From: Siphonodentalium dalli
Taxonomy: Eukaryota > Mollusca > Scaphopoda > Gadilida > Siphonodentaliidae
NCBI GenBank assembly: GCA_032622095.1
Contig: CP136065.1
Span: forward strand, 156,309,577-156,373,576
Reading direction: 5' to 3'
Length of the DNA stretch: 64,000 nucleotides
Under the pieces are notes generated by a model that ran no database searches, was not told the DNA's origin, and saw nothing but the letters and a program-made list of their open reading frames with translations. This document shows, one piece after another, positions 5,213 through 54,690 of this stretch. The first letter of the stretch is position 1. Each line of letters begins with the position of its first letter. A program made the translations under genes and the position numbers.

Positions 5213-5280
5213 AATTATATATATATATATGTGTGCGTGTGTGTGTGTGAGGGTGTGTGTGTGTGTGTGTGTGTGTGTTT
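5213..5280. repeat. (AT)n-(GT)n microsatellite
   Basis: About 18 bp of alternating AT followed by about 45 bp of GT with two interruptions. The His/Thr-rich minus-strand frame at 5215-5400 is an artefact of it. Confidence 0.9.
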
Positions 5281-5769: not shown

Positions 5770-6061
5770 AGGCGCTACCTATGGTTACTTTTGTCCGAGG
5801 AGTGTTTTGGACGGGTCGAATCGTGACCACGGCCTGACCTTGACCTTCAAAATTGTCAATTCAAGGTCAAATCGGGTAAAACCGGACGGATTTCGACGGG
5901 TACTTTTGTCGGGTACTTTTGTCCTGGGAGTGTTTTGGGTGGGTCAAGTCGTTACCCCAAACTGACCTTGACCTTCAAAATGGTCAAGTCAAGGTCAAAT
6001 CGCGCAATTCGCAGAAAAGCAGAGGGGAAACAGCCCGGACGAAGTCGGGTCCACCAGCTAG
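5770..6061 (+). mobile_element. Helitron 3' fragment (plus orientation)
   Basis: The element ends GGACGAAGTCGGGTCCACCA then GCTAG, followed by T. This is a short GC hairpin about 10 nt before CTAG, the CTRR-type 3' terminus of Helitrons, with the expected 3' T flank. The body repeats TGACCTTGACCTTCAAAAT and TCAAGGTCAAATCG and the phrase TTTTGTCC-GAGTGTTTTGG. These also occur, on the opposite strand, in the six-unit array at 39431-43433. The 5' end is missing, so this is a 5'-truncated or diverged copy. The open frames at 5699-6101 are repeat translations. Confidence 0.65.
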
Positions 6062-23415: not shown

Positions 23416-24243
23416 CAAGTGTAATTGATGAGAGAATGTGATAAATATGCAAAGAAATACCACCCCCACCATTTGTGGTTACATATGGGACACGTCGGTG
23501 ATTCATAATTTTCAGAGATCATCAAAATTTAATGACCTTGATGGATTGCATATTCTTTCATGAATGATGTGAGTTTCTGGGCATATGATACCCAGAGTTC
23601 CACAATAGGGCAGCCCTGTGCACAAACGCCAATTATTCGACTGGTCGTGAGAATTACAATATCGTGATTCTCATTACGATATTGAGTGATAATGCCAAAG
23701 TTCGAACACTCTTGGCTCTTACAAAAATACTGGAAGTGGTGGAATCATAACGAAAATGGATACCAGTAATGCAGTTATGACACCGTCTTATTTTTGCGTG
23801 AACACGCACTCTTACAATGAATACGGAGGGGGTTATATATGCCTAATATCACGTCGAAATTGATTGTAAATTGTATTCCCAATACCGGAAGTGCAGATAA
23901 TGACAGTCGCGTTTTAGAAACAGCATATTCCAGTAGAGGCCTGCGGATTAATTTCACATCGGTCTTCGAATCAAGTTTTATTAGAATGCCTGCGGGCGAT
24001 AAGGCATTTGTTAGACACATCTGTCTTCTCAAACCTATTGAGATGTTATTGCCCTGAGCTAGATCAAGATATTTCTGATTTGCAGTTTGCTGGTATGTGG
24101 CTTCTGTGCTGTCTTAATTCGATATGCAATTTTATGAGAGAAATATCTTCTCGGGTTTTAAACATTGAAAGCTCCTTTTATCGGTCGCAATTGCAAATGT
24201 GGGCGTATTAAGTTGATTTGGGCATGCATATTTATTCATATCC
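23416..24243. other. No recognisable feature
   Basis: Stop-rich. The overlapping frames 23775-24032 (minus) and 23839-24057 (plus) are mutual shadows without a recognised domain. Confidence 0.35.
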
Positions 24244-25765: not shown

Positions 25766-25812
<47 letters not shown>

Positions 25813-25989
25813 TGTACGATTATGTTAGCCAACCACGATCGCGCCCCGCGATCGCGATCGTAAATCGCGATCAGATCGTATATACCCACCGACATCATAA
25901 ATATGTCATTGTGGTCAGCGCACCAGTGGTAATTAAAATAACACCCCACAGAGCCCAGACTTTTCAGAACGAGGTCAGCACTCGTCCCG

Positions 25990-26860
25990 ACATTAGCCCT
26001 GACCTTGACCTCGCTCATATATGCTCATATAGGCATGTTTCTGGACCTCGACCGATCCGACTAAAATTTAATATGTAGGCATACTTTGATCCCGGGAACA
26101 ATACGGGTGGGTCAAATTTCACGTGCGATCGCGTCCTTGACCTTGACCTCTCTCATATATGCTCATGTAGGCATGTTTCTGATCCTTGACCGATCCCACT
26201 CAAATTTGGTATATATGCCTACTTTGATCCCGGGAACAATTTGGGCTGGTCCAATTGCACCTGGGAACGTGTCATTGACCTTGACCTTGAGCTCGCTCAT
26301 ATTCGCTTATATAGGCATGTTTCTGAACCTCGATCGATCCGACTCAAATTTGGTATGTAGGCCTACTTTGACCCCGGGAACAATATGGGCGGTTCCAATT
26401 TCACGTGCGATTGCGTCCTTTACATTGACCTTGACATCGGTCATACAGACATGTTTCTTGATATTTACCGATCCGGCTCAAATTTGGTATGTAGGACTAC
26501 TTTAATCCCGGGGACAATATGGACGGGTCCAATTTCACGCGCGGCCGTGTCCTTGAACGTTACCTCGCTCATATACGCTCATATAGGCATGTTTCTGGAC
26601 CTCGACCTTCCGACTAAAATTTGATATGTAGATCTAATTTGATCCCGGGAACAATATGGGCAAGTCCAATTTAACGTACGACAATGTCATTGACCTTGAC
26701 CATGTACGCTCATATAGGCATGTTTCTGAACCTCGACCGATTCGACTCAAATTTGATATGTAGGTCTACTTTGCTACCGATCGAACAATAGTTAGTCCAG
26801 ACGGAGGCGATCACTAAGAAATCACTAAATAGCCCGGACGAAGTCGGGCACATCAGCTAG
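25990..26860 (+). mobile_element. Helitron-like unit, left arm (137-bp subrepeats)
   Basis: Six tandem subrepeats, with GGCATGTTTCTG phrases at 26032, 26170, 26314, 26448, 26586 and 26717 (period 131-144). Each contains CAAATTTGGTATGTAGGC, GATCCCGGGAACAATATGGG and CCTTGACCTTGACCTC. The unit ends GCCCGGACGAAGTCGGGCAC then ATCAGCTAG followed by T, the same hairpin plus CTAG terminus as the array at 39431-43433. A clear 5' TC end is not visible. Confidence 0.65.
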
Positions 26861-29800
26861 TGTCATATAAATTGTTATTTTACTTACCTACTTTTCGAGG
26901 TGCCAGGACACTCTACAGAGATATCATTCCACATTAGTTGATGCATATGTGTAGACAGTGTGACCGCTGGTAGTGGAAAACCATCCCACGCAGTTGAAAT
27001 TTGGGAAAAGTAGGTCATCACGGACTTCAATACTTCTATGTACAAACCGAACATTATCGCTATTATGGCCCGTTGTTTTTAGGGCTCCAGGACACTCCAC
27101 ACGCATAACCCACGAACATAACAGGTATGTCATTGTGGTCAACACATCAGCCCTAATTACAATTTAACCCCACGCAGCTGGATTTCTAGAGCACGAGGTC
27201 AGCACGGGTCCCGACATATTCGTCGTGATTTCATATAAATTGGCATTTCTACCTAATTTCGAGGTACCAGGACACTCTACAGAGATATCCCTCCACATTA
27301 GTTGATGCATATTTGTAGACAGTGTGACCGCTGGTAGTGGAAAACCACCCCACGCAGTTGAAATTTGGGAAAAGTAGGTCATCACGGACTTCAATATGTC
27401 TATGTACAAACCGAACATTATCGCTATTATGGGCCGTTTTTAGGGCTCCAGGACACTACACACGCATAACCCACGAACATAGCAGGTATGTCATTGTGGT
27501 CAACACATCAGCCCTAATTACAATTTAACCCCACGCAGCTGGATTTCTAGAGCACGAGGTCAGCACGGGTCCCGACATATTCGTCGTGATTTCATATAAA
27601 TTGGCATTTCTACCTAATTTCGAGGTACCAGGACACTCTACAGACATATCCCTCCACAAATTTTCCACTACCAGCGGTCACACTGTCTACACATATGCAT
27701 CAACTAATGTGGAGGGATGTCTCTGTAGAGTGTCCTGGCACCTCGAAATTAGGTAGAAATGACAATTTATATGAAATCACGACGAATATGTCGGGACCCG
27801 TGCTGACCTCGTGCTCTAGAAATCCAGCTGCGTGGGGTTAAATTGTAATTAGGGCTGATGTGTTGACCACAATGACATACCTGTTTTGTTCGTGGGTTAT
27901 GCGTGTGGAGTGTCCTGGAGCCCTAAAAACGGGCCATAATAGCGATAATGTTCGGTTTGTACATAGACGTATTGAAGTCCGTGATGACCTGTTTTTACCA
28001 AATTTCAACTGCGTGGGGTGGTTTTCCACTACCAGCGGTCACACTGTCTACAAATATGCATCAACTAATGTGGAGGGATATCTCTGTAGAGTGTCCTGGT
28101 ACCTCGAAATTAGGTAGAAATGCCAATTTATATGAAATCACGACGAATTTGTCGGGACCCGTGCTGACCTCGTGCTCTAGAAATCCAGCTGCGTGGGGTT
28201 AAATTGTAATTAGGGCTGATGTGTTGACCACAATGACATACCTGTTATGTTCGTGGGTTATGCGTGTGAAGTGTCATGGAGCCCTAAAAACGGGCCATAA
28301 TAGCGATAATGTTCGGTTTGTACATAGAAGTATTGAAGTCCGCGATGACCTGCTTTTACCAAATTTCAACTGCATGGGGTGGTTTTCCACTACCAGCGGT
28401 CACACTCTCTACACATATGCATCAACTAATGTGGAGGGATATCTCTGTAGAGTGTCCTGGCACCTCGAAATTAGGTTAAAATACCAATTTATATGAAATC
28501 ACGACGAATATGTCGGGACCCGTGCTGACCTCGTGCTCTAGAAATCCAGCTGCGTGGGGTTAAATTGTAATTAGGGCTGATGTGTTGACCACAATGACAT
28601 ACCTGTTATGTTCGTGGGTTATGCGTGTGGAGTGTCCTGGAGCCCTAAAAACGGGCCATAATAGCGATAATGTTCGGTTTGTACATAGAAGTATTGAAGT
28701 CCGTGATGACCTGTTTTTACCAAATTTCAACTGCGTGGGGTGGTTTTCCACTACCAGCGGTCACACTGTCTACACATATGCATCAACTAATGTGGAGGGA
28801 TATCTCTGTAGAGTGTCCTGGTACCTCGAAATTAGGTAGAAATGCCAATTTATATGAAATCACGACGAATATGTCGGGACCCGTGCTGACCTCGTGCTCT
28901 AGAAATCCAGCTGCGTGGGGTTAAATTGTAATTAGGGCTGATGTGTTGACCACAATGACATACCTGTTATGTTCGTGGGTTATGCGTGTGTAGTGTCCTG
29001 GAGCCCTAAAAACGGCCCATAATAGCGATAATGTTCGGTTTGTACATAGACATATTGAAGTCCGTGATGACCTGTTTTTACCAAATTTCAACTGCCTGGG
29101 GTGGTTTTCCACTACCAGCGGTCACACTGTCTACAGATATGCATCAACTAATTTGGAGGGATATCTCTGTAGAGTGTCCTGGTACCTCGAAATTAGGTAG
29201 AAATGCCAATTTATATGAAATCACGACGAATATGTCGGGACCCGTGCTGACCTCGTGCTCTAGAAATCCAGCTGCGTGGGGTTAAATTGTAATTAGGGCT
29301 GATGTGTTGACCACAATGACATACCTGTTATGTTCGTGGATTATGCGTGTGGAGTATCTTGGAGCCCTAAAAACGGGCCATAATAGCGATAATGTTCGGT
29401 TTGTACATAGAAGTATTGAAGTCCGTGATGACCTACTTTTCCCAAATTTCAACTGCGTGGGGTGGTTTTCCACTACCAGCGGTCACACTGTCTACAAATA
29501 TGCATCAACTAATGTGGAGGGATATCTCTGTAGAGTGTCCTGGTACCTCGAAATTAGGTAGAAATGCCAATTTATATGAAATCACGACGAATATGTCGGG
29601 ACCCGTGCTGACCTCGTGCTCTAGAAATCCAGCTGCGTGGGGTTAAATTGTAATTAGGGCTGATGTGTTGACCACAATGACATACCTGTTATGTTCGTGG
29701 GTTATGCGTGTGGAGTGTCCTGGAGCCCTAAAAACAACGGGCCATAATAGCGATAATGTTCGGTTTGTACATAGAAGTATTGAAGTCCGTGATGACCTAC

Positions 29801-29949
29801 TTTTCCCAAATTTCAACTGCGTGGGATGGTTTTCCACTACCAGCGGTCACACTGTCTACACATATGCATCAACTAATGTGTAATGATATCTCTGTAGAGT
29901 GTCCTGGCACCTCGAAAAGTAGGTAAGTAAAATAACAATTTATATGACA
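26861..29949. repeat. 361-bp dimeric satellite with central inversion
   Basis: About 8.5 units of 361 bp. Units left of about 27658 run on the minus strand and those to the right on the plus strand. In the right block TTTTCCACTACCAGCGG recurs at about 27659, 28022, 28383, 28744, 29105, 29467 and 29829. Each unit is a diverged dimer of about 180-bp halves. Both halves share TGCGTGGGGT near the start, AGTGTCCTGG mid-way, and CCGTG-TGACCT near the end. The palindrome arms beyond (25900-25990) contain a third, diverged monomer. Conserved frames of 63-85 codons repeat in every unit, but they occur on both strands and reflect low divergence rather than coding. Confidence 0.9.
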
Positions 29950-30830
29950 CTAGCTGATGTGCCCGACTTCGTCCGGGCTATTTAGTGATTTCTTAGTGAT
30001 CGCCTCCGTCTGGACTAACTATTGTTCGATCGGTAGCAAAGTAGACCTACATATCAAATTCGAGTCGAATCGGTCGAGGTTCAGAAACATGCCTATATGA
30101 GCGTACATGGTCAAGGTCAATGACATTGTCGTACGTTAAATTGGACTTGCCCATATTGTTCCCGGGATCAAATTAGATCTACATATCAAATTTTAGTCGG
30201 AAGGTCGAGGTCCAGAAACATGCCTATATGAGCGTATATGAGCGAGGTAACGTTCAAGGACACGGCCGCGCGTGAAATTGGACCCGTTCATATTGTCCCC
30301 GGGATTAAAGTAGTCCTACATACCAAATTTGAGCCGGATCGGTAAATATCAAGAAACATGTCTGTATGACCGATGTCAAGGTCAATGTAAAGGACGCAAT
30401 CGCACGTGAAATTGGAACCGCCCATATTGTTCCCGGGATCAAAGTAGGCCTACATACCAAATTTGAGTCGGATCGATCGAGGTTCAGAAACATGCCTATA
30501 TAAGCGAATATGAGCGAGCTCAAGGTCAAGGTCAATGACACGTTCCCAGGTGCAATTGGACCAGCCCAAATTGTTCCCGGGATCAAAGTAGGCATATATA
30601 CCAAATTTGAGTGGGATCGGTCAAGGTCCAGAAACATGCCTACATGAGCATATATGAGAGAGGTCAAGGTCAAGGACGCGATCGCACGTGAAATTTGACC
30701 CACCCGTATTGTTCCCGGGATCAAAGTATGCCTACATATTAAATTTTAGTCGGATCGGTCGAGGTCCAGAAACATGCCTATATGAGCATATATGAGCGAG
30801 GTCAAGGTCAGGGCTAATGTCGGGACTAGT
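29950..30830 (-). mobile_element. Helitron-like unit, right arm
   Basis: Reverse-complement copy of 25990-26860. It begins with CTAG at 29950 (preceded by A), then the GCCCGACTTCGTCCGGGC hairpin and the 137-bp subrepeats. Differences from the left arm are isolated substitutions, so the two share recent ancestry. Confidence 0.65.
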
Positions 30831-30997
30831 GCTGACCTCGTTCTGAAAAGTCTGGGCTCTGTGGGGTGTTATTTTAATTACCACTGGTGCGCTGACCACA
30901 ATGACATATTTATGATGTCGGTGGGTATATACGATCTGATCGCGATTTACGATCGCGATCGCGGGGCGCGATCGCGGTTGGCTAACAGAATCGTACA

Positions 30998-31028
<31 letters not shown>

Positions 31029-35235: not shown

Positions 35236-35538
35236 AGCGCGTGAGTGTAATGTAATTACTGCGTGTATGTCAATAGCATTGTGTACACGTGGTGAATTGT
35301 CATCGCCCGGTGAGTTATATTCACTTGTGATTTGTCATACGTGCTGTTTTGAAAGTTATTGTTTTGACAAAAAAATATTGAAGGCCGATTGAGCGGGGTA
35401 GATACCACTTTCGTGTCAAAAATAAAGCTTATACAAATACGAGCCGACATGTGAACTCTTTTCGGATGCGTGTTCACGATGTTGTTTTTCATATATATGC
35501 CCCGAGTGTCCCGTATTTACAACCATTCATTCGTGACA

Positions 35539-35724
35539 ATGCCAAATAAATGTAGTGTTTTCGGCTGTGGCCGGTATAGTGACTCTCAATTAGGTATAGT
35601 TCTGCATTCATTTCCAAACGATGTTCGTTTACGTGACATTTGGCGGGATTTCTGTGGGGAAACCCGTTGCGCAAAATCAGAAACAACATACAGAATACAT
35701 ATACCAAAAATAAAGAGCGTTTAA
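35539..35724 (+). pseudogene. Partial THAP zinc-finger domain (exon fragment or relic)
   Basis: Reading from the ATG at 35539 gives 61 codons. The first half fits the THAP DNA-binding fold: MPNKCSVFGC supplies the first Cys pair (C5, C10), followed by a conserved HSFPND block (F25-P26) and a Trp at 35 (LRDIWRDF). THAP domains bind DNA through a C2CH zinc site. They occur in P-element transposases, their domesticated derivatives and host THAP proteins. The required C-x2-H second half is missing before the stop at 35722. I did not find it nearby in another frame, so this is either a first exon whose partner lies outside or a decayed copy. In-frame codons extend upstream to 35470, but MPNK is the usual THAP start. 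AATAAA-like strings follow at 35708. Confidence 0.6.
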
Positions 35725-37392: not shown

Positions 37393-39430
37393 ATTTTCTG
37401 GTGTTAAAAAACGCATTCAATATGGTTTTATGGTATCGAATAGAACAGTGTATCTTTAACCTGGAAATACTATAATAATCAGGGGGGTTGTCAAATATAT
37501 TTTCCGAGCACGTATGGAGGGATGGTGGTCGGTCAATATGACCCAAAGGCAATTTATTCCGCAGCTCAAACATAGAATGTTGCCTTAAACTTAGAGATAT
37601 TGTAATTTTAATAGAAAATCTGCATTCATAGCTAGTGTCGAAATATGGTCGGAGAAAAACGGAAAACATTTCTGGTCGAGGGTGGGTGGGTTCCAAAAAT
37701 GGCCCAATGTTAAAAAGTATCATGGGTGTCTTAATTGTTTTTCCGAATCCCCCCTCCCCACCATGTGAAAATCCGCGTATCTCGCGTGATTTCTTGATTT
37801 ACCAAATCAGAATCGTGTTTGCAAACATTGGGTGAGTTTATTTGTACCTTTAGTTATTTTTACTACAGGAATAGATTACTCACTACCATCATAATATTTG
37901 GAGTAATGGTTTGACACCTCAAATTCCACATGAACAGTTAATTTTCTTCCAACAACTGTATGCGTTCCTAACATCCGAACGAGGTTATTTTTTCAACCTC
38001 CTGCTTAGTTAAACACGCCTACATTCACTGCGGAGTGTTGGGTAAATACACGATGCAGCCGGCTGTTCATTGCGTCCATCTGAATAAACTTTCATAACAT
38101 CGATATGCGACGATAGCACTTCTCCTATGAGAAACGGAAGCGAGCCAGCGGGGAGAGTATGTCCTCGATTGTGAAGTTCAGAGTTATTCTGTCCACCGTA
38201 TATAAAATATCGATCTCACCCAACGCACATAAAACCGCTTCAAGCCATCAATCGTCATCAAAACGCCGTGCCCAATACTCTTGTTTCTTGCGAACTTCTT
38301 TTTGTTGGAGTCGTAGATATCACATATAGAAATCGAATGGAGCGCACCGTAATATAACTACCACCATTGATCGGGACCCGATAATGGTTTTTCCAAGCTT
38401 GGTCTTTTGTAATAAAAAGAAATTGCTAATATTGGAGTTTCATTAGTAGGTCTTATCCTCCTGAATACACATATGGAAAAACGTGAGTGACATCGTTGAA
38501 TCGCCACATCTATTATTAAAGTTGTACTAATTCATAACTCAACCTTTATGACAACGCCGAGATTGATTTTGATCGAATCTCGCCGTTATTTTACGCTCTG
38601 AGCTAAATTGGCTTTGGGTTTCTATTACCGATATCAATAGGGGACTGATGTTCAGGCGAGCTGAGGGCAACTTGACCGCTCAAAGACATGTATTTCTAAG
38701 GCTATAATTATTTGGCGCCCACCTCGTATCTCATATTGAAGCCGCTACTGGGGTTACAGACAATGGGCATTTGTTCGCCGCCGCCCTGACAAACCTTTCA
38801 GACACTGAGGACCAGAAGAAGCTTTGGAGATTTGTCCCGCGATGCTTCCAATTGAATCAAGCGCTAAGTCCATGTCTATTGGTACCTACACTGTAAATTA
38901 ATGGTCTGGGAAATTCTATACCACACGGGGACAAAAATGTTGTAACAAGAGTATATACAAACAATATGCAGTACTTGCTGTTCTCGATGTTAGAGAGTTG
39001 ATAATCTCCGTAAACCAGTTGGTGAAATCTGACAATATTGGTTTACGTCGAACTATATATGCTTTACTGTTCTATATCACACTTTATGGGATTTTTCGTT
39101 AATTTTAATCGGCTGCATCATACAAATCATTACAAGATGTTACATTCATCGCAGAGTGCATATCTTACAGTCATAATGATGTATTATCATCTAACTGTTG
39201 TGTTAAATTGCGCACATAATACGCCATTTAATCAGGAGTAACCCCACATTTGAGCTGTTTGTTAAGCCACGAGAAGACCCGAACTGATACGACGTTCGCG
39301 ATGTGAAATGAGTTAATTTTCTTTTGAAACTAGGTAAACATTGTGATAAATTATATTTTTCACATTAAATTACTACTTTCAGTTGAAAATTATTGTGTAT
39401 TTCAGAACAAATATAACGTTTTATATGGAA
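37393..39430. other. No confident gene; one open exon-like stretch
   Basis: Mostly unique sequence. The interval 38708-38893 (plus) is open for 62 codons without an ATG and reads HLVSHIEAATGVTDNGHLF and then DTEDQKKLWRFVPRC. Its composition is protein-like and its GC content is above its surroundings, but I recognise no family. No clean splice pair is obvious. Confidence 0.2.
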
Positions 39431-42400
39431 CTAGAAGGTGACCCAACTTCGTCCGGGCTTTGACCTTGAATTGACCATTTTGAAGGTCAAGGTCAGGTGG
39501 GGTCAAACACCAACACCCCAAAAATGGTGGAAATCGGCCCAGCGGATACCGGGAAATCGGCCCAGCGGATACCGAGATACCCTATGCATCAAATTTCGTC
39601 CGTAAAAATCCGCCAGTTTAACCCGATTTGATTTCCACTCAAGTATATAAACGCGCCTCATATACACACGCTCATTAATTATCAAGTTTCAACGTAAAGA
39701 TAAATTACCATCGGTGCCCGAGATATCGCCAAGACGTCTGAAACAGTCAAATGCATCGGCCGGTTAAGCGTTAACGTGATCTAACGTTATGACCTCTAAC
39801 GACGTCATAGAAGTTACGTTTTTATCCTGATGGAAGATAGTACCACTTCTTCTTGATAATTGAGGCAGATAACTAAAACGGATAGATACGCATTATATAT
39901 CGTTGGAAAGAGGAAACACGAAAGATTCTCACAGTGTCATTATTATGACTGGCATTTTATTATTCGCGCTGTTTCGAATCGATTTGTAAGCACCGAACTC
40001 AAATGAAAGTCCCGTAACACAGCGTAAAAACATATTTCACCTCGGCACGTGAAAAGTTTACCTCGGATCTGAAAATCAATAGGCCTATGCCATTTCTCGA
40101 CCGATAGTACCCTCACATACGAAGTTTCATCGAAATCGGGTCGGCCGTTTTCGAGTTAATCGCGAACACACACACACACACACACCAGACACACACAGAG
40201 ACAGATCTTCCAAAAATATATAATAGACTAGAAGGTGACCCGACTTCGTCCGGGCTTTGACCTTGAATTGTCCATTTTGAAGATCAAGGTCAGTTGGGGT
40301 CAAACACCAACACCCCAAAAATGGTGGAAATCGGCCCAGCGGATACCGGGAAATCGGCCCAGCGGATACCGAGATACCCTATGCATCAAATTTCGTCCGT
40401 AAAAATCCGCCAGTTTAACCCGATTTGATTTCCACTCAAGTATATAAACGCGCCTCATATACACACGCTCATTAATTATCGGTCCCGAGATATCGCCAAG
40501 ACGTCTGAAACAGTCAAATGCATCGGCCGGTTAAGCGTTAACGTGATCTAACGTTATGACCTCTAACGACGTCATAGAAGTTACGCATTGTTTTTACCCT
40601 GATGGAAGATAGTACCACTTCTTCTTGATAATTGAGGCAGATAACTAAAACGGATACATACGCATTATATATCGTTGGAAAGAGGAAACACGAAAGATTC
40701 TCACAGTGTCATTATTATGACTGGCATTTTATTATTCGCGCTGTTTCGAATCGATTTGTAAGCACCGAACTCAAATGAAAGTCCCGTAACACAGCGTAAA
40801 AACATATTTCACCTCGGCACGTGAAAAGTTTACCTCGGATCTGAAAATCAATAGGCCTATGCCATTTCTCGACCGATAGTACCCTCACATACGAAGTTTC
40901 ATCGAAATCGGGTCGGCCGTTTTCGAGTTAATCGCGAACACACACACACACACACACCAGACACACACAGAGACAGATCTTCCAAAAATATATAATAGAC
41001 TAGAAGGTGACCCGACTTCGTCCGGGCTTTGACCTTGAATTGTCCATTTTGAAGGTCAAGTGGGGTCACGATTTGACCAGTCCAAAACACTGCCCGGACA
41101 AAAGTACCCGACAAACGTGCCCGTCGAAATCCATCCGGTTTTACCCGATTTGACCTTGAATTGATCAAGGTCAGGTCGGGGTCACGACTCGACCCGTCCA
41201 AAACACTCAGTGGACAAAAGTAACCCCACGTATCAAATTTCGTCGAAATCCCATCAAAATTGGCGATATGACCTTGAATTGACCAGATTGCAAGGTCAAT
41301 GTCACGTCGCACGGGTAAATGAATATGCTTATGAGACTCCCCGTACGAATGTACCCCCGCATTCCAAGTTTCATTGAAATCCCGTAATATTTGGGCGTTT
41401 GACCTTGAAATTACCCGATTTCAAGGTCAAGGTCACGTCGCACGGACAAATTAATAGGCCTATGCCCGTTCCCGGCCGAAAATATCCCCACATACCAAGT
41501 TTCATCGAAATCGGCTCGGTCGTTTTCGAGTTCATCGCGAACACACAGACAGACAGACACACAGACAGATCTTCCAAAATATATAATAGACTAGAAGGTG
41601 ACCCGACTTCGTCCGGGCTTTGACCTTGAATTGTCCATTTTGAAGGTCAAGGTCAAGTGGGGTCACGATTTGACCAGTCCAAAAAACACTACCCGGACAA
41701 AAGTACCCGACAAACGTGCCCGTCGAAATCCATCCGGTTTTACCCGATTTGACCTTGATTGATCATTTTGAAGGTCAAGGTCCGGTCGGGGTCACGATTG
41801 GACCCGTCCAAAACAATCAGTGGACAAAACTAACCCCACGTATCAAATTTCGTCGAAATCCCATCAAAATTGGCGATTTGACCTTGAAGTTACCCGATGT
41901 CAAGGTCACGTCGCACGGGCAAATGAATATTCTTATGAGACTCGCCATAAGAAAGTACCCCCACATACCAAGTTTCATCGAAATCCCGTGATATTCGGGC
42001 GTTTGACCTTGAAATTACCCGATTTCAAGGTCAAGGTGACGTCACACGGACATATTAATATGCCTATGTTCGTCCCCGGCCGAAAATATCCCCACATACC
42101 AAGTTTCATCGAAATCGGGTGGGCCGTTTTCGAGTTCATCGCGAACACACAAACACACACACAGACACACAGATCTTCCAAAATATATAATAGACTAGAA
42201 GGTGACCAGACTTCGTCCGGGCTTTGACCTTGAATTGTCCATTTGGAAGGTCTAGGTCAAGTGGGGTCACGATTTGACCAGTCCAAAAACACTGCCCGGA
42301 CAAAAGTACCCGACAAACGTGCCCGTCGAAATCCATCCGGTTTTACCAAATTTGACCTTGAATTGATCATTTTGAAGGTCAAGGTATGTCGGGGTCACGA

Positions 42401-43433
42401 TTGGACCCGTCCAAAGCAATCAGTGGACAAAGGTAACCCCACGTATCAAATTTCGTCGAAATCCCATCAAAATTGGCGATTTGACCTTGAAGTTACCCGA
42501 TTTCAAGGTCAATGTCACGTCGCACGGGCAAATGAATATGCGTATGAGACTCGCCATAAGAAAGTACCCCCACATACCAAGTTTCATCGAAATCCCGTGA
42601 TATTCGGGCGTTTGACCTTGAAATGACCCGATTTCAAGGTCAAGGTGACGTCGCACGGACAAATTAATATGCTTATGTTCGTTCCCGGCCGAAAATACCC
42701 CCACATACCAAGTTTCATCGAAATCGGGTGGGCCGTTTTCGAGTTCATCGCGAACACACAGACAGACACACAGACAGATCTTCCAAAATATATAATAGAC
42801 TAGAAGGTGACCCGACTTCGTCCGGGCTTTGACCTTGAATTGTCCATTTTGAAGGTCAAGGTCAAGTGGGGTCACGATTTGACCAGTCCAAAAACACTGC
42901 CCGGACAAAAGTACCCGACAAACGTGCCCGTCGAAATCCATCCGGTTTTACCCGATTTGACCTTGAATTGATCATTTTGAAGGCCAAGGTCTGGTCGGGG
43001 TCACGATTGGACCCGTCCAAAACAATCAGTGGACAAAACTAACCCCACGTATCAAATTTCGTCGAAATCCCATCAAAATTGGCAATTTGACCTTGAAGTT
43101 ACCCGATTTCAAGGTCAAGGTCACGTTGCACGGGCAAATGAATATGCTTATGAAACTCGCCATAAGAAAGTACCACGACATACCAAGTTTCATCGAAATC
43201 CCGTGATATTCGGGCGTTTGACCTTGAAATGACCCGATTTCAAGGTCAAGGTGACGTCGCACGGACAAATTAATATGCCTATGTTCGTTCCCGGCCGAAA
43301 ATACCCTCACATACCAAGTTTCATCGAAATCGGGTGGGCCGTTTTCGAGTTCATCGCGAACACACACACAGACACACAGACACACACACAGACACACACA
43401 CAGACACACAGATCTTCCAAAATATATAATAGA
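39431..43433 (-). mobile_element. Head-to-tail array of six non-autonomous Helitrons
   Basis: Read on the minus strand, the array begins TCTATTATATATTTTGGAAG just after A and ends GAAGTCGGGTCACCTTCTAG just before T. A hairpin (CCCGGACGAAGTCGGG) lies about 8 nt before CTAG. These are canonical Helitron features: 5' TC, 3' hairpin plus CTRR, insertion between A and T. Internal junctions join CTAG directly to TCTATTATAT with no host base. Plus-strand units are 39431-40227, 40228-40999, 41000-41590, 41591-42194, 42195-42799 and 42800-43433. The first two are one subtype (a duplicated AAATCGGCCCAGCGGATACC phrase, then a different body). The last four are a second subtype with TGACCTTGA repeats. 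Each unit holds an ACAC/ACAG microsatellite near its 5' end. No Rep/helicase is present. All longer frames here are repeat shadows. Confidence 0.88.
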
Positions 43434-43434
43434 T

Positions 43435-43937
43435 TAACCGGCCCGGGTTACTTTCATAATTGTGACATCTTAAAGTCTGATATATAGAAGAGTAAGGCAA
43501 CTGTACTTCGACGCAGGCCAGTATTCTCCCTACCGATTTCACTAGCGCGCGGTTTACGGCGAAGGAAACATGGACCATTTAGTGTCTATCCTGATCTGAA
43601 CAACAACTATACATATATGCCCGACTGTTTGCTCACGGTAAATTATTTCCACGGAATTCAACTTGAATTCTGATAGAGGCTTACACACATATTAATTAGT
43701 TGGAGGCGCGAATGGTTGCTATATATGAGACAAGGCGTCTGCAGAAATAGTTTAATTAGTTTTATAGCGCATGTCGTTATGTTATAATAAATCCGAGAAC
43801 ATACCTTCTTTTCGCCTTTAATTAAAAAAAAAATATTGCAATTGTCACGAAAAAAAAGACAGTGTTACTATCGTTTAAAACATCATTGCCCAAATCGAAA
43901 TTTCAGTACAATGTTATTTGACAACAACCGTTGTTGG
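43435..43937. other. No recognisable feature
   Basis: AT-rich unique flank of the Helitron array. The shadow frame 43351-43578 starts inside the array. Confidence 0.35.
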
Positions 43938-45262: not shown

Positions 45263-45663
45263 CTAGAAGGGTTACCCGGCGTTGCCCAGGTTAAAGTCAT
45301 TAGCTTCACTCCCGGTGGGCATATATTTGATGTCAGACAGAACTGTGCCCGATATACCACAAGAAAGGTCATAAAAAACTAGAAAGAAAACCCCAATGTG
45401 GCATATTATTAGTGCGGTACTCGCCCTGTATTAAATCGTTGAAAACTGCGATCAGAGTAAGAAATCTTCTCAGATACTAACACATTTTCGGAGCGAATCA
45501 GCGCGCGGAGTCTCATGGAATTATATTCGGAGGAAATCGGAACCACCCACATAACGACGATCGGCTGGCACGCACGACTGGGAGAACAGCCAAAACAAAG
45601 GCCGGCATGTCGATAACGAAAGTAGATTAACAAAAAGAGAAAAAAACAAACAAAATAATAGGG
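45263..45663 (-). mobile_element. Possible second Helitron-type 3' end
   Basis: CTAGAAGGGTTACCCGGCGT then TGCCCAGG at 45263 mirrors the CTAG-hairpin layout of the 39.4-kb family with a different hairpin, and is preceded by A. Inward limits are unclear. The 45409-45633 minus frame has no recognised domain. Confidence 0.35.
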
Positions 45664-46215: not shown

Positions 46216-47010
46216 CTTGAAAGAACAATTTAGAGTAGGCCTACTCCCTTTATCCAAGATTCATGCTGGCTGTGAAAGACCGATGGGATTATTTTAGCCC
46301 GATCGGTATATTTTAGCCCGATCGGGCTATTATTGATTGATCGGTGGTTCACCCAGACCTGTAGGATATGCGCACTATAGGATATAGATAAGGCGTTTTA
46401 TGTATGGGAGGCCTATTTCACTTGAAAGAACAATTTATAGTAGGCCTACTCACTTTATCCAAGATTCAGGCTGGCTATGAAAGACCGATCGGTCTATTTT
46501 AGCCCGATCGGGCTATTATTGATTGATCAGTGGTTCACCCAGACCTGTAGGGTATGCGCGCTATAGTATATAGATAAGGCGTTTCATGTATGGGAGGCCT
46601 ATTTCACTTGAAAGAACAATTTATAGTAGGCCTACTCCCTTTATCCAAGATTCAGGCTGGCTGTGAAAGACCGATCGGTCTATTTTAGCCCGATCGGTCT
46701 ATTTTAGACCGATCGGGCTATTATTGATTGATCGGTGGTTCACCCAGACCTGTAGGGTATGCGCGCTGTAGTATATAGATAAGGCGTTCCATGTATGGGA
46801 GGCCTATTTCACTTGAAAGAACAATTTAGAGTAGGCCTACTCCCTTTATCCAAGATTCAAGCTGGCTGTGAAAGAACGATCGGTCTATTTTAGCCTGATC
46901 GGTCTACTTTAGCCCGATCGGGCTGTTATTGATTGATCGGTGGTTCACCCAGACCTGTAGGATATACGCGCTATAGCATATAGATACGGCATTTCATGTA
47001 TGGGATACCC
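46216..47010 (+). repeat. Four-unit 186-205-bp tandem repeat
   Basis: Units start with CTTGAAAGAACAATTTA at 46216, 46421, 46607 and 46812. Length variation is largely due to one or two extra 19-bp CCGATCGGTCTATTTTAG modules. Each unit has inverted CCGATCGG and GGCCTACT-type palindromes. Non-coding and highly similar, hence recent. Confidence 0.9.
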
Positions 47011-47157
47011 ATTTCACATTTATTATTCATTTACGATCAAGCACAAATATTTCGCAAAATAACATCTATCCTTTGCGCTTCAGTGTAAATCATTTGCGCA
47101 AATAAAAATTAATATGCATTGATATCACCCCCCTGAATTAATTTTAAATGGCACAGA

Positions 47158-54382: not shown

Positions 54383-54690
54383 TTTAACCCTTTCATGACG
54401 GGAGCCGCGTTGGTGCAGCAATAAAGTTCATGTGCCAGTGCACTCTCTTAGATATGCGAGTTCCCCATAGGGAACCTCGAATATATACACGTATAAGAGA
54501 ATGCACTGGCTTACAAGATCAAATTAAATATTGTTTGGCCAATACATTCTCTTATAAATGCGAGGCTCCCTATTGGAGACACACATTATATATGCGAGCT
54601 ACCTATGGGAGATTCGCATATATAATAGAATGCATTGGCACAGGGTTTTCGCAAACTTCGAGAAGCTACAGTCATGGGAGGGTTAAATTT
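54383..54690. mobile_element. Serial hairpin element, unit 1
   Basis: Bounded by TTTAACCCTTTCATGACGGG (54383) and an inverted CATGGGAGGGTTAAAT (ending about 54690). It contains two hairpins: 54435-54509 (CCAGTGCACTCTCTTAGATA against TATAAGAGAATGCACTGG) and 54537-54639 (CCAATACATTCTCTTATAAA against TATAATAGAATGCATTGG). Both loops include a GCGAG-CTC...GGGA core. Non-coding. Confidence 0.65.

Follow-up and report, generated by a model that had tools for sequence, protein, structure and literature searches.

Exact head-to-tail junctions or tandem arrays of Helitrons have been described in bat, maize, other plants, Drosophila and fungi, as far as the accessible text of those reports goes, and the available portion of PMC5876387 cites such tandem elements as evidence for rolling-circle transposition. 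For a maize pair (Du et al. 2008, PMC2267711), the accessible text describes CTAG joined straight to TC, a G/T junction, between units of different content, and its authors likewise discuss insertion at the A/T target made of a host A and the 5' T of an element. Here we describe an array with the same kind of junction in a 64,000-nucleotide (nt) stretch of the scaphopod mollusc Siphonodentalium dalli (GenBank assembly GCA_032622095.1, contig CP136065.1, positions 156,309,577 to 156,373,576 of the forward strand; "the window" below), in which six short Helitron-like units without a recognised gene contrast with the two gene-carrying elements of maize. With a probability that we place slightly above even, stepwise stacking of new copies at the 5' edge is the most likely way in which this array was assembled from at least three source lineages.

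Six complete units joined without host DNA

On the minus strand, positions 43433 to 39431 hold exactly six complete units and nothing else, numbered U1 to U6 in element orientation, and the unit lengths (Table 1) add up to the 4003 nt of the array. All six begin with TC (start sequence TCTATTATAT; opening letters TCTATTATATATTTT) and end with CTAG, of the CTRR type (end sequence CACCTTCTAG), an ending also found in S, a diverged relative elsewhere in the window. Exact matches to TCTATTATAT number seven in the window, six at unit starts and one at 54620-54629, while every one of the six exact matches to GGTCACCTTCTAG is a unit end. At all five inner junctions CTAG meets TC with no added or host base. 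A sequence-only reading had proposed six head-to-tail units at this place and on this strand, with exact CTAG/TC junctions, between a 5' A and a 3' T and in the order BB then AAAA. These proposals agree with what we found, the order being that of the plus strand and becoming AAAABB in element orientation.

In element orientation the array is flanked by ...CCGGTTAA on its 5' side and TTCCATAT... on its 3' side, with an A before U1 and a T after U6. Such outer flanks are by themselves weak evidence, because G+C content runs from 0.35 to 0.45 across the window in 2-kb steps and both letters are common; when joined, the outer flanks match only themselves within the window, and A/T flanks are common by chance. 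The 3' edge is clear, and the 60 nt downstream of U6 are unlike a unit start (as high a score came from 953 of 1000 shuffles, compared with 0 of 1000 for a true unit start used as positive control). The 5' edge is placed by its letters, and the borderline similarity between the 60 nt upstream of U1 and the end of U1 (50 of 1000 shuffles score as well) counts against it.

That an assembler joined repeats from several loci is highly improbable: substitutions and indels distinguish the units, and the array is only 4 kb long. Random-phase tandem duplication is also an unlikely origin because the number of units is exactly whole. Crossover between units already in tandem keeps the number whole as well, and is compatible with this count.

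Lineages among the units

Subtypes A and B are joined in BLAST comparisons only via nt 1-155 of B (79-82% identity) and its last 75 nt (92-98% against A ends), and parts of these B end segments also match the inner repeats of A. One template therefore cannot yield both A and B, and the joins between unlike units call either for independent insertions or for copying from an already mixed template. Within the subtypes, U5 and U6 are 98.8% identical (9 mismatches in 767), U1 to U3 are 96.3-97.2% identical to one another, and U4 is 93.2-93.7% identical to U1 to U3. The sequence-only reading had taken the unit lengths as a sign of recent amplification; lengths cannot show this, and we give the measured identities instead.

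Gap-free substitution columns altered in one unit only number 6 for U1, 10 for U2, 6 for U3 and 26 for U4. A Hasegawa-Kishino-Yano (HKY) tree of U1 to U4 and S, to which S contributes only its 3' part, split U4 and S from U1 to U3 at 98% bootstrap (200 replicates), and U1 to U3 formed a near-even star with branches of 0.014, 0.018 and 0.016 and an inner node at 51%. U4 has the outgroup letter at six of the nine polarisable sites that set it against U1 to U3 (four of six with U5 as outgroup, two of three with S), a set that omits microsatellite columns and column 442 of the A alignment (A in U1 and U2, G in U3, T in U4 and S); from these letters, U1 to U3 appear to share derived states. Since A and B match only through the ends of B, and U4 forms a sub-lineage of A by itself, the array needs three or more source lineages, with A1 present three times, A2 once and B twice, in blocks of three, one and two.

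These differences bear directly on the origin that the sequence-only reading had favored, namely that read-through of termination in one or two events of multi-lap rolling-circle replication produced the array, with the second subtype taken in en route. We regard this as improbable for the whole array, in view of the end-only similarity of A and B, the separate position of U4 and the three or more sources. Units copied from the same template start out identical, yet A and B have only their ends in common, and U4 falls outside U1 to U3; a single multi-lap event for all six units is ruled out by the A and B interiors and by U4. Capture of B by read-through would also be expected, as an expectation only, to bring host DNA between units, and none is present. 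Part of the proposal survives at a smaller scale: a single event in each block agrees with the near-even star of U1 to U3 and with the closeness of U5 to U6, and multi-lap copying is possible within U1-U3 and within U5-U6.

Some of the substitutions may point instead to exchange between units. A shorter mixed array, A1-A2-B, could have formed by insertion, after which unequal crossover or gene conversion would have multiplied and mixed its units in the manner of a young satellite; we consider this origin unlikely though not negligible. Crossover between aligned units preserves whole-unit edges, and all four columns that divide U1 to U4 two against two conflict, with columns 130 and 203 grouping U3 with U4 and columns 315 and 395 grouping U2 with U4. 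In addition, U5 and U6 show no difference in their first 342 nt and nine mismatches after that point (P = 0.005, or P = 0.03 without three mismatches beside an indel, the cut at 342 having been picked post hoc). However, the conflicting columns are only four, a number for which chance or pre-existing variation among source copies could suffice, and the heterotypic joins would still require insertion. Some conversion or crossover between units is plausible, not proven.

Table 1. Positions of the array units, their flanks and the diverged relative within the window
Feature	Positions	Strand	Length (nt)	Remarks
5' host flank	43434..43453	-		ends ...GGTTAA
U1, subtype A1, outermost 5' unit	42800..43433	-	634	TC start, CTAG end, host A upstream
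U2, subtype A1	42195..42799	-	605	96.7% to U1, 96.3% to U3
U3, subtype A1	41591..42194	-	604	97.2% to U1
U4, subtype A2	41000..41590	-	591	separate A sub-lineage; 93.2-93.7% to U1-U3
U5, subtype B	40228..40999	-	772	only nt 1-155 and 698-772 match A units (BLAST)
U6, subtype B, outermost 3' unit	39431..40227	-	797	98.8% to U5; match to A units limited to nt 1-155 and 723-797 (BLAST); host T follows
3' host flank	39411..39430	-		starts TTCCATAT
S, diverged 3' part of related Helitron	5783..6061	+		ends CTAG, then T

Proposed stepwise stacking at the 5' edge

Under stepwise stacking, a first B copy would have landed between a host A and a host T, moved by a transposase presumably supplied from another element. 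The host A and the resident's own first T would then make up a new A/T target, and a next copy inserting at this A/TC site, directly 5' of the resident, would create a CTAG/TC junction without a host base and renew A/TC at the outer edge. Repetition of these steps would leave the oldest unit at the 3' end and the youngest at the 5' end, with B arriving before A2 and A2 before A1. Stacking is the likeliest origin of the heterotypic joins. Neighbors of the same subtype might instead have come jointly by multi-lap rolling-circle copying, or might have been multiplied and homogenized by unequal crossover or gene conversion.

The direction of growth follows an argument made for the maize pair in the accessible text of Du et al. 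(2008, PMC2267711): a copy going in on the 3' side of a resident would need a G/T target, while insertion on the 5' side finds the canonical A/T. The exact junctions, the differing interiors of A and B, the distance of U4 from U1 to U3, the block order and the A and T at the outer flanks are all directly observed, and we also count for stacking that all six 3' ends are intact. Exact CTAG/TC junctions alone do not prove multi-lap copying, because stacking at the A/TC edge yields an identical junction.

Several observations weigh against stacking. Divergence within the B pair (9 mismatches in 767) is lower than among the A1 units (6 + 10 + 6 single-unit columns; one-sided binomial P = 0.04, with rounded lengths), even though stacking makes B the oldest block, so that stacking needs either divergence of the A copies before insertion or a homogenized B pair. 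Divergence fails to confirm the predicted order, and an attempt to date the blocks by it gave no decision, as the P value of 0.04 puts B younger and B may be homogenized. The near-even star of U1 to U3 is also what one three-lap event would be expected to leave. Among the polarized sites, six of nine is not significant alone, and three further polarisable columns sort the units differently: column 131 of the alignment with U5 as outgroup unites U3 with U4 against the outgroup, column 128 of the same alignment has the outgroup letter retained by U1 alone, and column 395 of the alignment of A units with S has the letter of S in U2 and U4, not in U1 and U3 (columns 131 and 128 correspond to columns 130 and 127 of the alignment with S). 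Moreover, U5, the neighbor of U4, serves as outgroup at four of the six supporting sites, and conversion between neighbors could mimic these.

A broader proposal is that the 5' edge, composed of host A and the first T of the element, renews itself as a landing site, which would make such arrays time-ordered, with each unit older than its 5' neighbor, turn the succession from B to A2 to A1 into successive waves of activity, and let them seed satellites. We offer this tentatively, as possible but short of even. Should stacking at the A/TC edge prove general, waves of Helitron activity could be dated from ordered mixed arrays, which could also help to explain how Helitrons seed satellites.

Helitron features and related copies

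Judged from their letters, the units look like non-autonomous canonical Helitrons, a label that fits because of the TC start, the CTAG end, the A/T flanks, the letters of a 3' hairpin and the diverged relative ending in CTAG followed by T. Each unit opens at its 5' end with an AT-rich stretch, followed by a TG/TC microsatellite. In subtype A there are then inner repeats, recurring roughly every 131 nt, which Tandem Repeats Finder lists in three of the four A units and which in U3 are also visible as shifted BLAST matches.

Canonical Helitrons insert between A and T with no target duplication, and a short hairpin precedes their 3' end by some 10-12 nt. In this array CCCGGACGAAGTCGGG, near the 3' end, could form a small hairpin with a CCCG/CGGG stem 11 nt before the end, a spacing found in four of the six units (12 nt in S). 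The hairpin-CTAG ends of the sequence-only reading stand as far as the hairpin letters and CTAG are concerned, but the hairpin letters are altered in U2 and U6, and predicted stability was not above that of shuffles in any of seven sequences. Shuffles folding as well numbered 54 of 200 for U1, U3, U4 and U5, 90 of 200 for U2 and 164 of 200 for U6.

Five reading frames of at least 120 amino acids lie in the array, three crossing a unit border and two not. Searches against Pfam covered 40 of the 373 open reading frames (ORFs) of at least 55 amino acids in the window, with no match at E 0.05 in the 10 ORFs that overlap the array and no Rep or helicase among the 30 others. Rfam at gathering score and a tRNA search each returned zero hits.

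Within the window, the related copies outside the array amount to the one diverged 3' end, S. Its positions 5783-5999 are 83-87% identical to the 3' part of U1 to U4 over 217-219 aligned columns, and a tail about 30 nt beyond 5999, GCCCGGACGAAGTCGGGTCCACCAGCTAG followed by T, was recognized in the letters and in a MAFFT alignment. Since this tail keeps the hairpin letters and ends with CTAG at 6061, then T, it supports CTAG as a real 3' end. The 5' end of S was not located, similarity at about 5214-5279 consisting only of TA/TG repeats.

Exact terminal or inner patterns of the units had no matches in viral contigs, and one 23-base 3' pattern had none in a collection of genome contigs. A 17-base 3' pattern occurred in three viral contigs. 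The six units align with these across just 11-23 nt (46 rows, best E 0.001), and we take these short matches as chance, not as relatives.

The window holds 49 copies of the nonamer TCAAGGTCA, of which 32 fall in the array, with six to eight copies per A unit and two per B unit. In 500 first-order Markov resamples of the array its mean count was 0.03 and its largest 1; the observed copies are not independent. Sixteen of the other 17 lie in S (5835-5997) and in the arms of a palindrome at 26-31 kb (26000-26699 and 30111-30810), and one lies at 23533. According to the accessible text of PMC8451941, TCAAGGTCA is the Esrrb consensus in mouse cells and is bound by Nr5a2 too. These repeats could spread nuclear-receptor half-sites.

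Other features in the window

The palindrome belongs to a large foldback at 25782-31028, whose arms of 1875 nt are 99% complementary and 1497 nt apart. Two oppositely oriented tandem repeats of 361 bp lie within it, at 26863-27658 and at 27661-29947, and the whole resembles a foldback element that carries internal tandem repeats. A reading frame at 35455-35721 on the plus strand encodes a THAP domain (Pfam PF05485, E 2.2e-05, 25.6 bits against a cut-off of 23.9), the only domain above its cut-off among the scanned ORFs. A second Helitron family may have a 3' end at 45263-45330 on the minus strand, where a G+C-rich hairpin-like stretch, equalled in folding by 85 of 200 shuffles, is followed by CTTCTAG and then T. 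A tandem repeat of 186/205 bp with CCGATCGG motifs occupies 46299-47017.

Comparison with known tandem Helitrons

The literature searched, with subscription papers mostly outside reach, showed us no array of six units drawn from several Helitron subtypes, and no paper matched the sequence strings. The main text of a silkworm Helitron paper that is cited for arrays contains neither "tandem" nor "head-to-tail."

The tandem Helitrons of Myotis lucifugus (Pritham and Feschotte 2007, as reported in accessible parts of PMC2267711 and PMC5876387) share the perfect head-to-tail junctions, but those arrays read as tandem repeats, whereas the present one has at least three lineages. Plant centromeric arrays (Xiong et al. 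2016, as represented in citing papers) likewise contain many tandem Helitrons, and differ from this array, in which all six units have a full 3' end. In Metarhizium acridum, three tandem Helitrons (PMC5148889, in its available text) were discussed under the same two models, repeated insertion at the 5' end or rolling-circle replication of a circle, although that case is fungal, has three copies and comes from a paper on non-canonical Helitrons. The Helentron-derived HINEs of Crassostrea gigas (PMC7492417, in its available text) are also non-autonomous and carry a microsatellite towards their left end as well as internal tandem repeats. HINEs are typified by sub-terminal inverted repeats together with a 3' palindrome, and our comparison extends to the microsatellite and inner repeats only, the units here having ends of the form TC...CTAG between A and T.

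Published work already describes exact CTAG/TC junctions and the two models for their origin, and the arrangement is basically of a known kind. What is somewhat unusual in this scaphopod array is the combination of six full-ended units, three lineages and ordered blocks.
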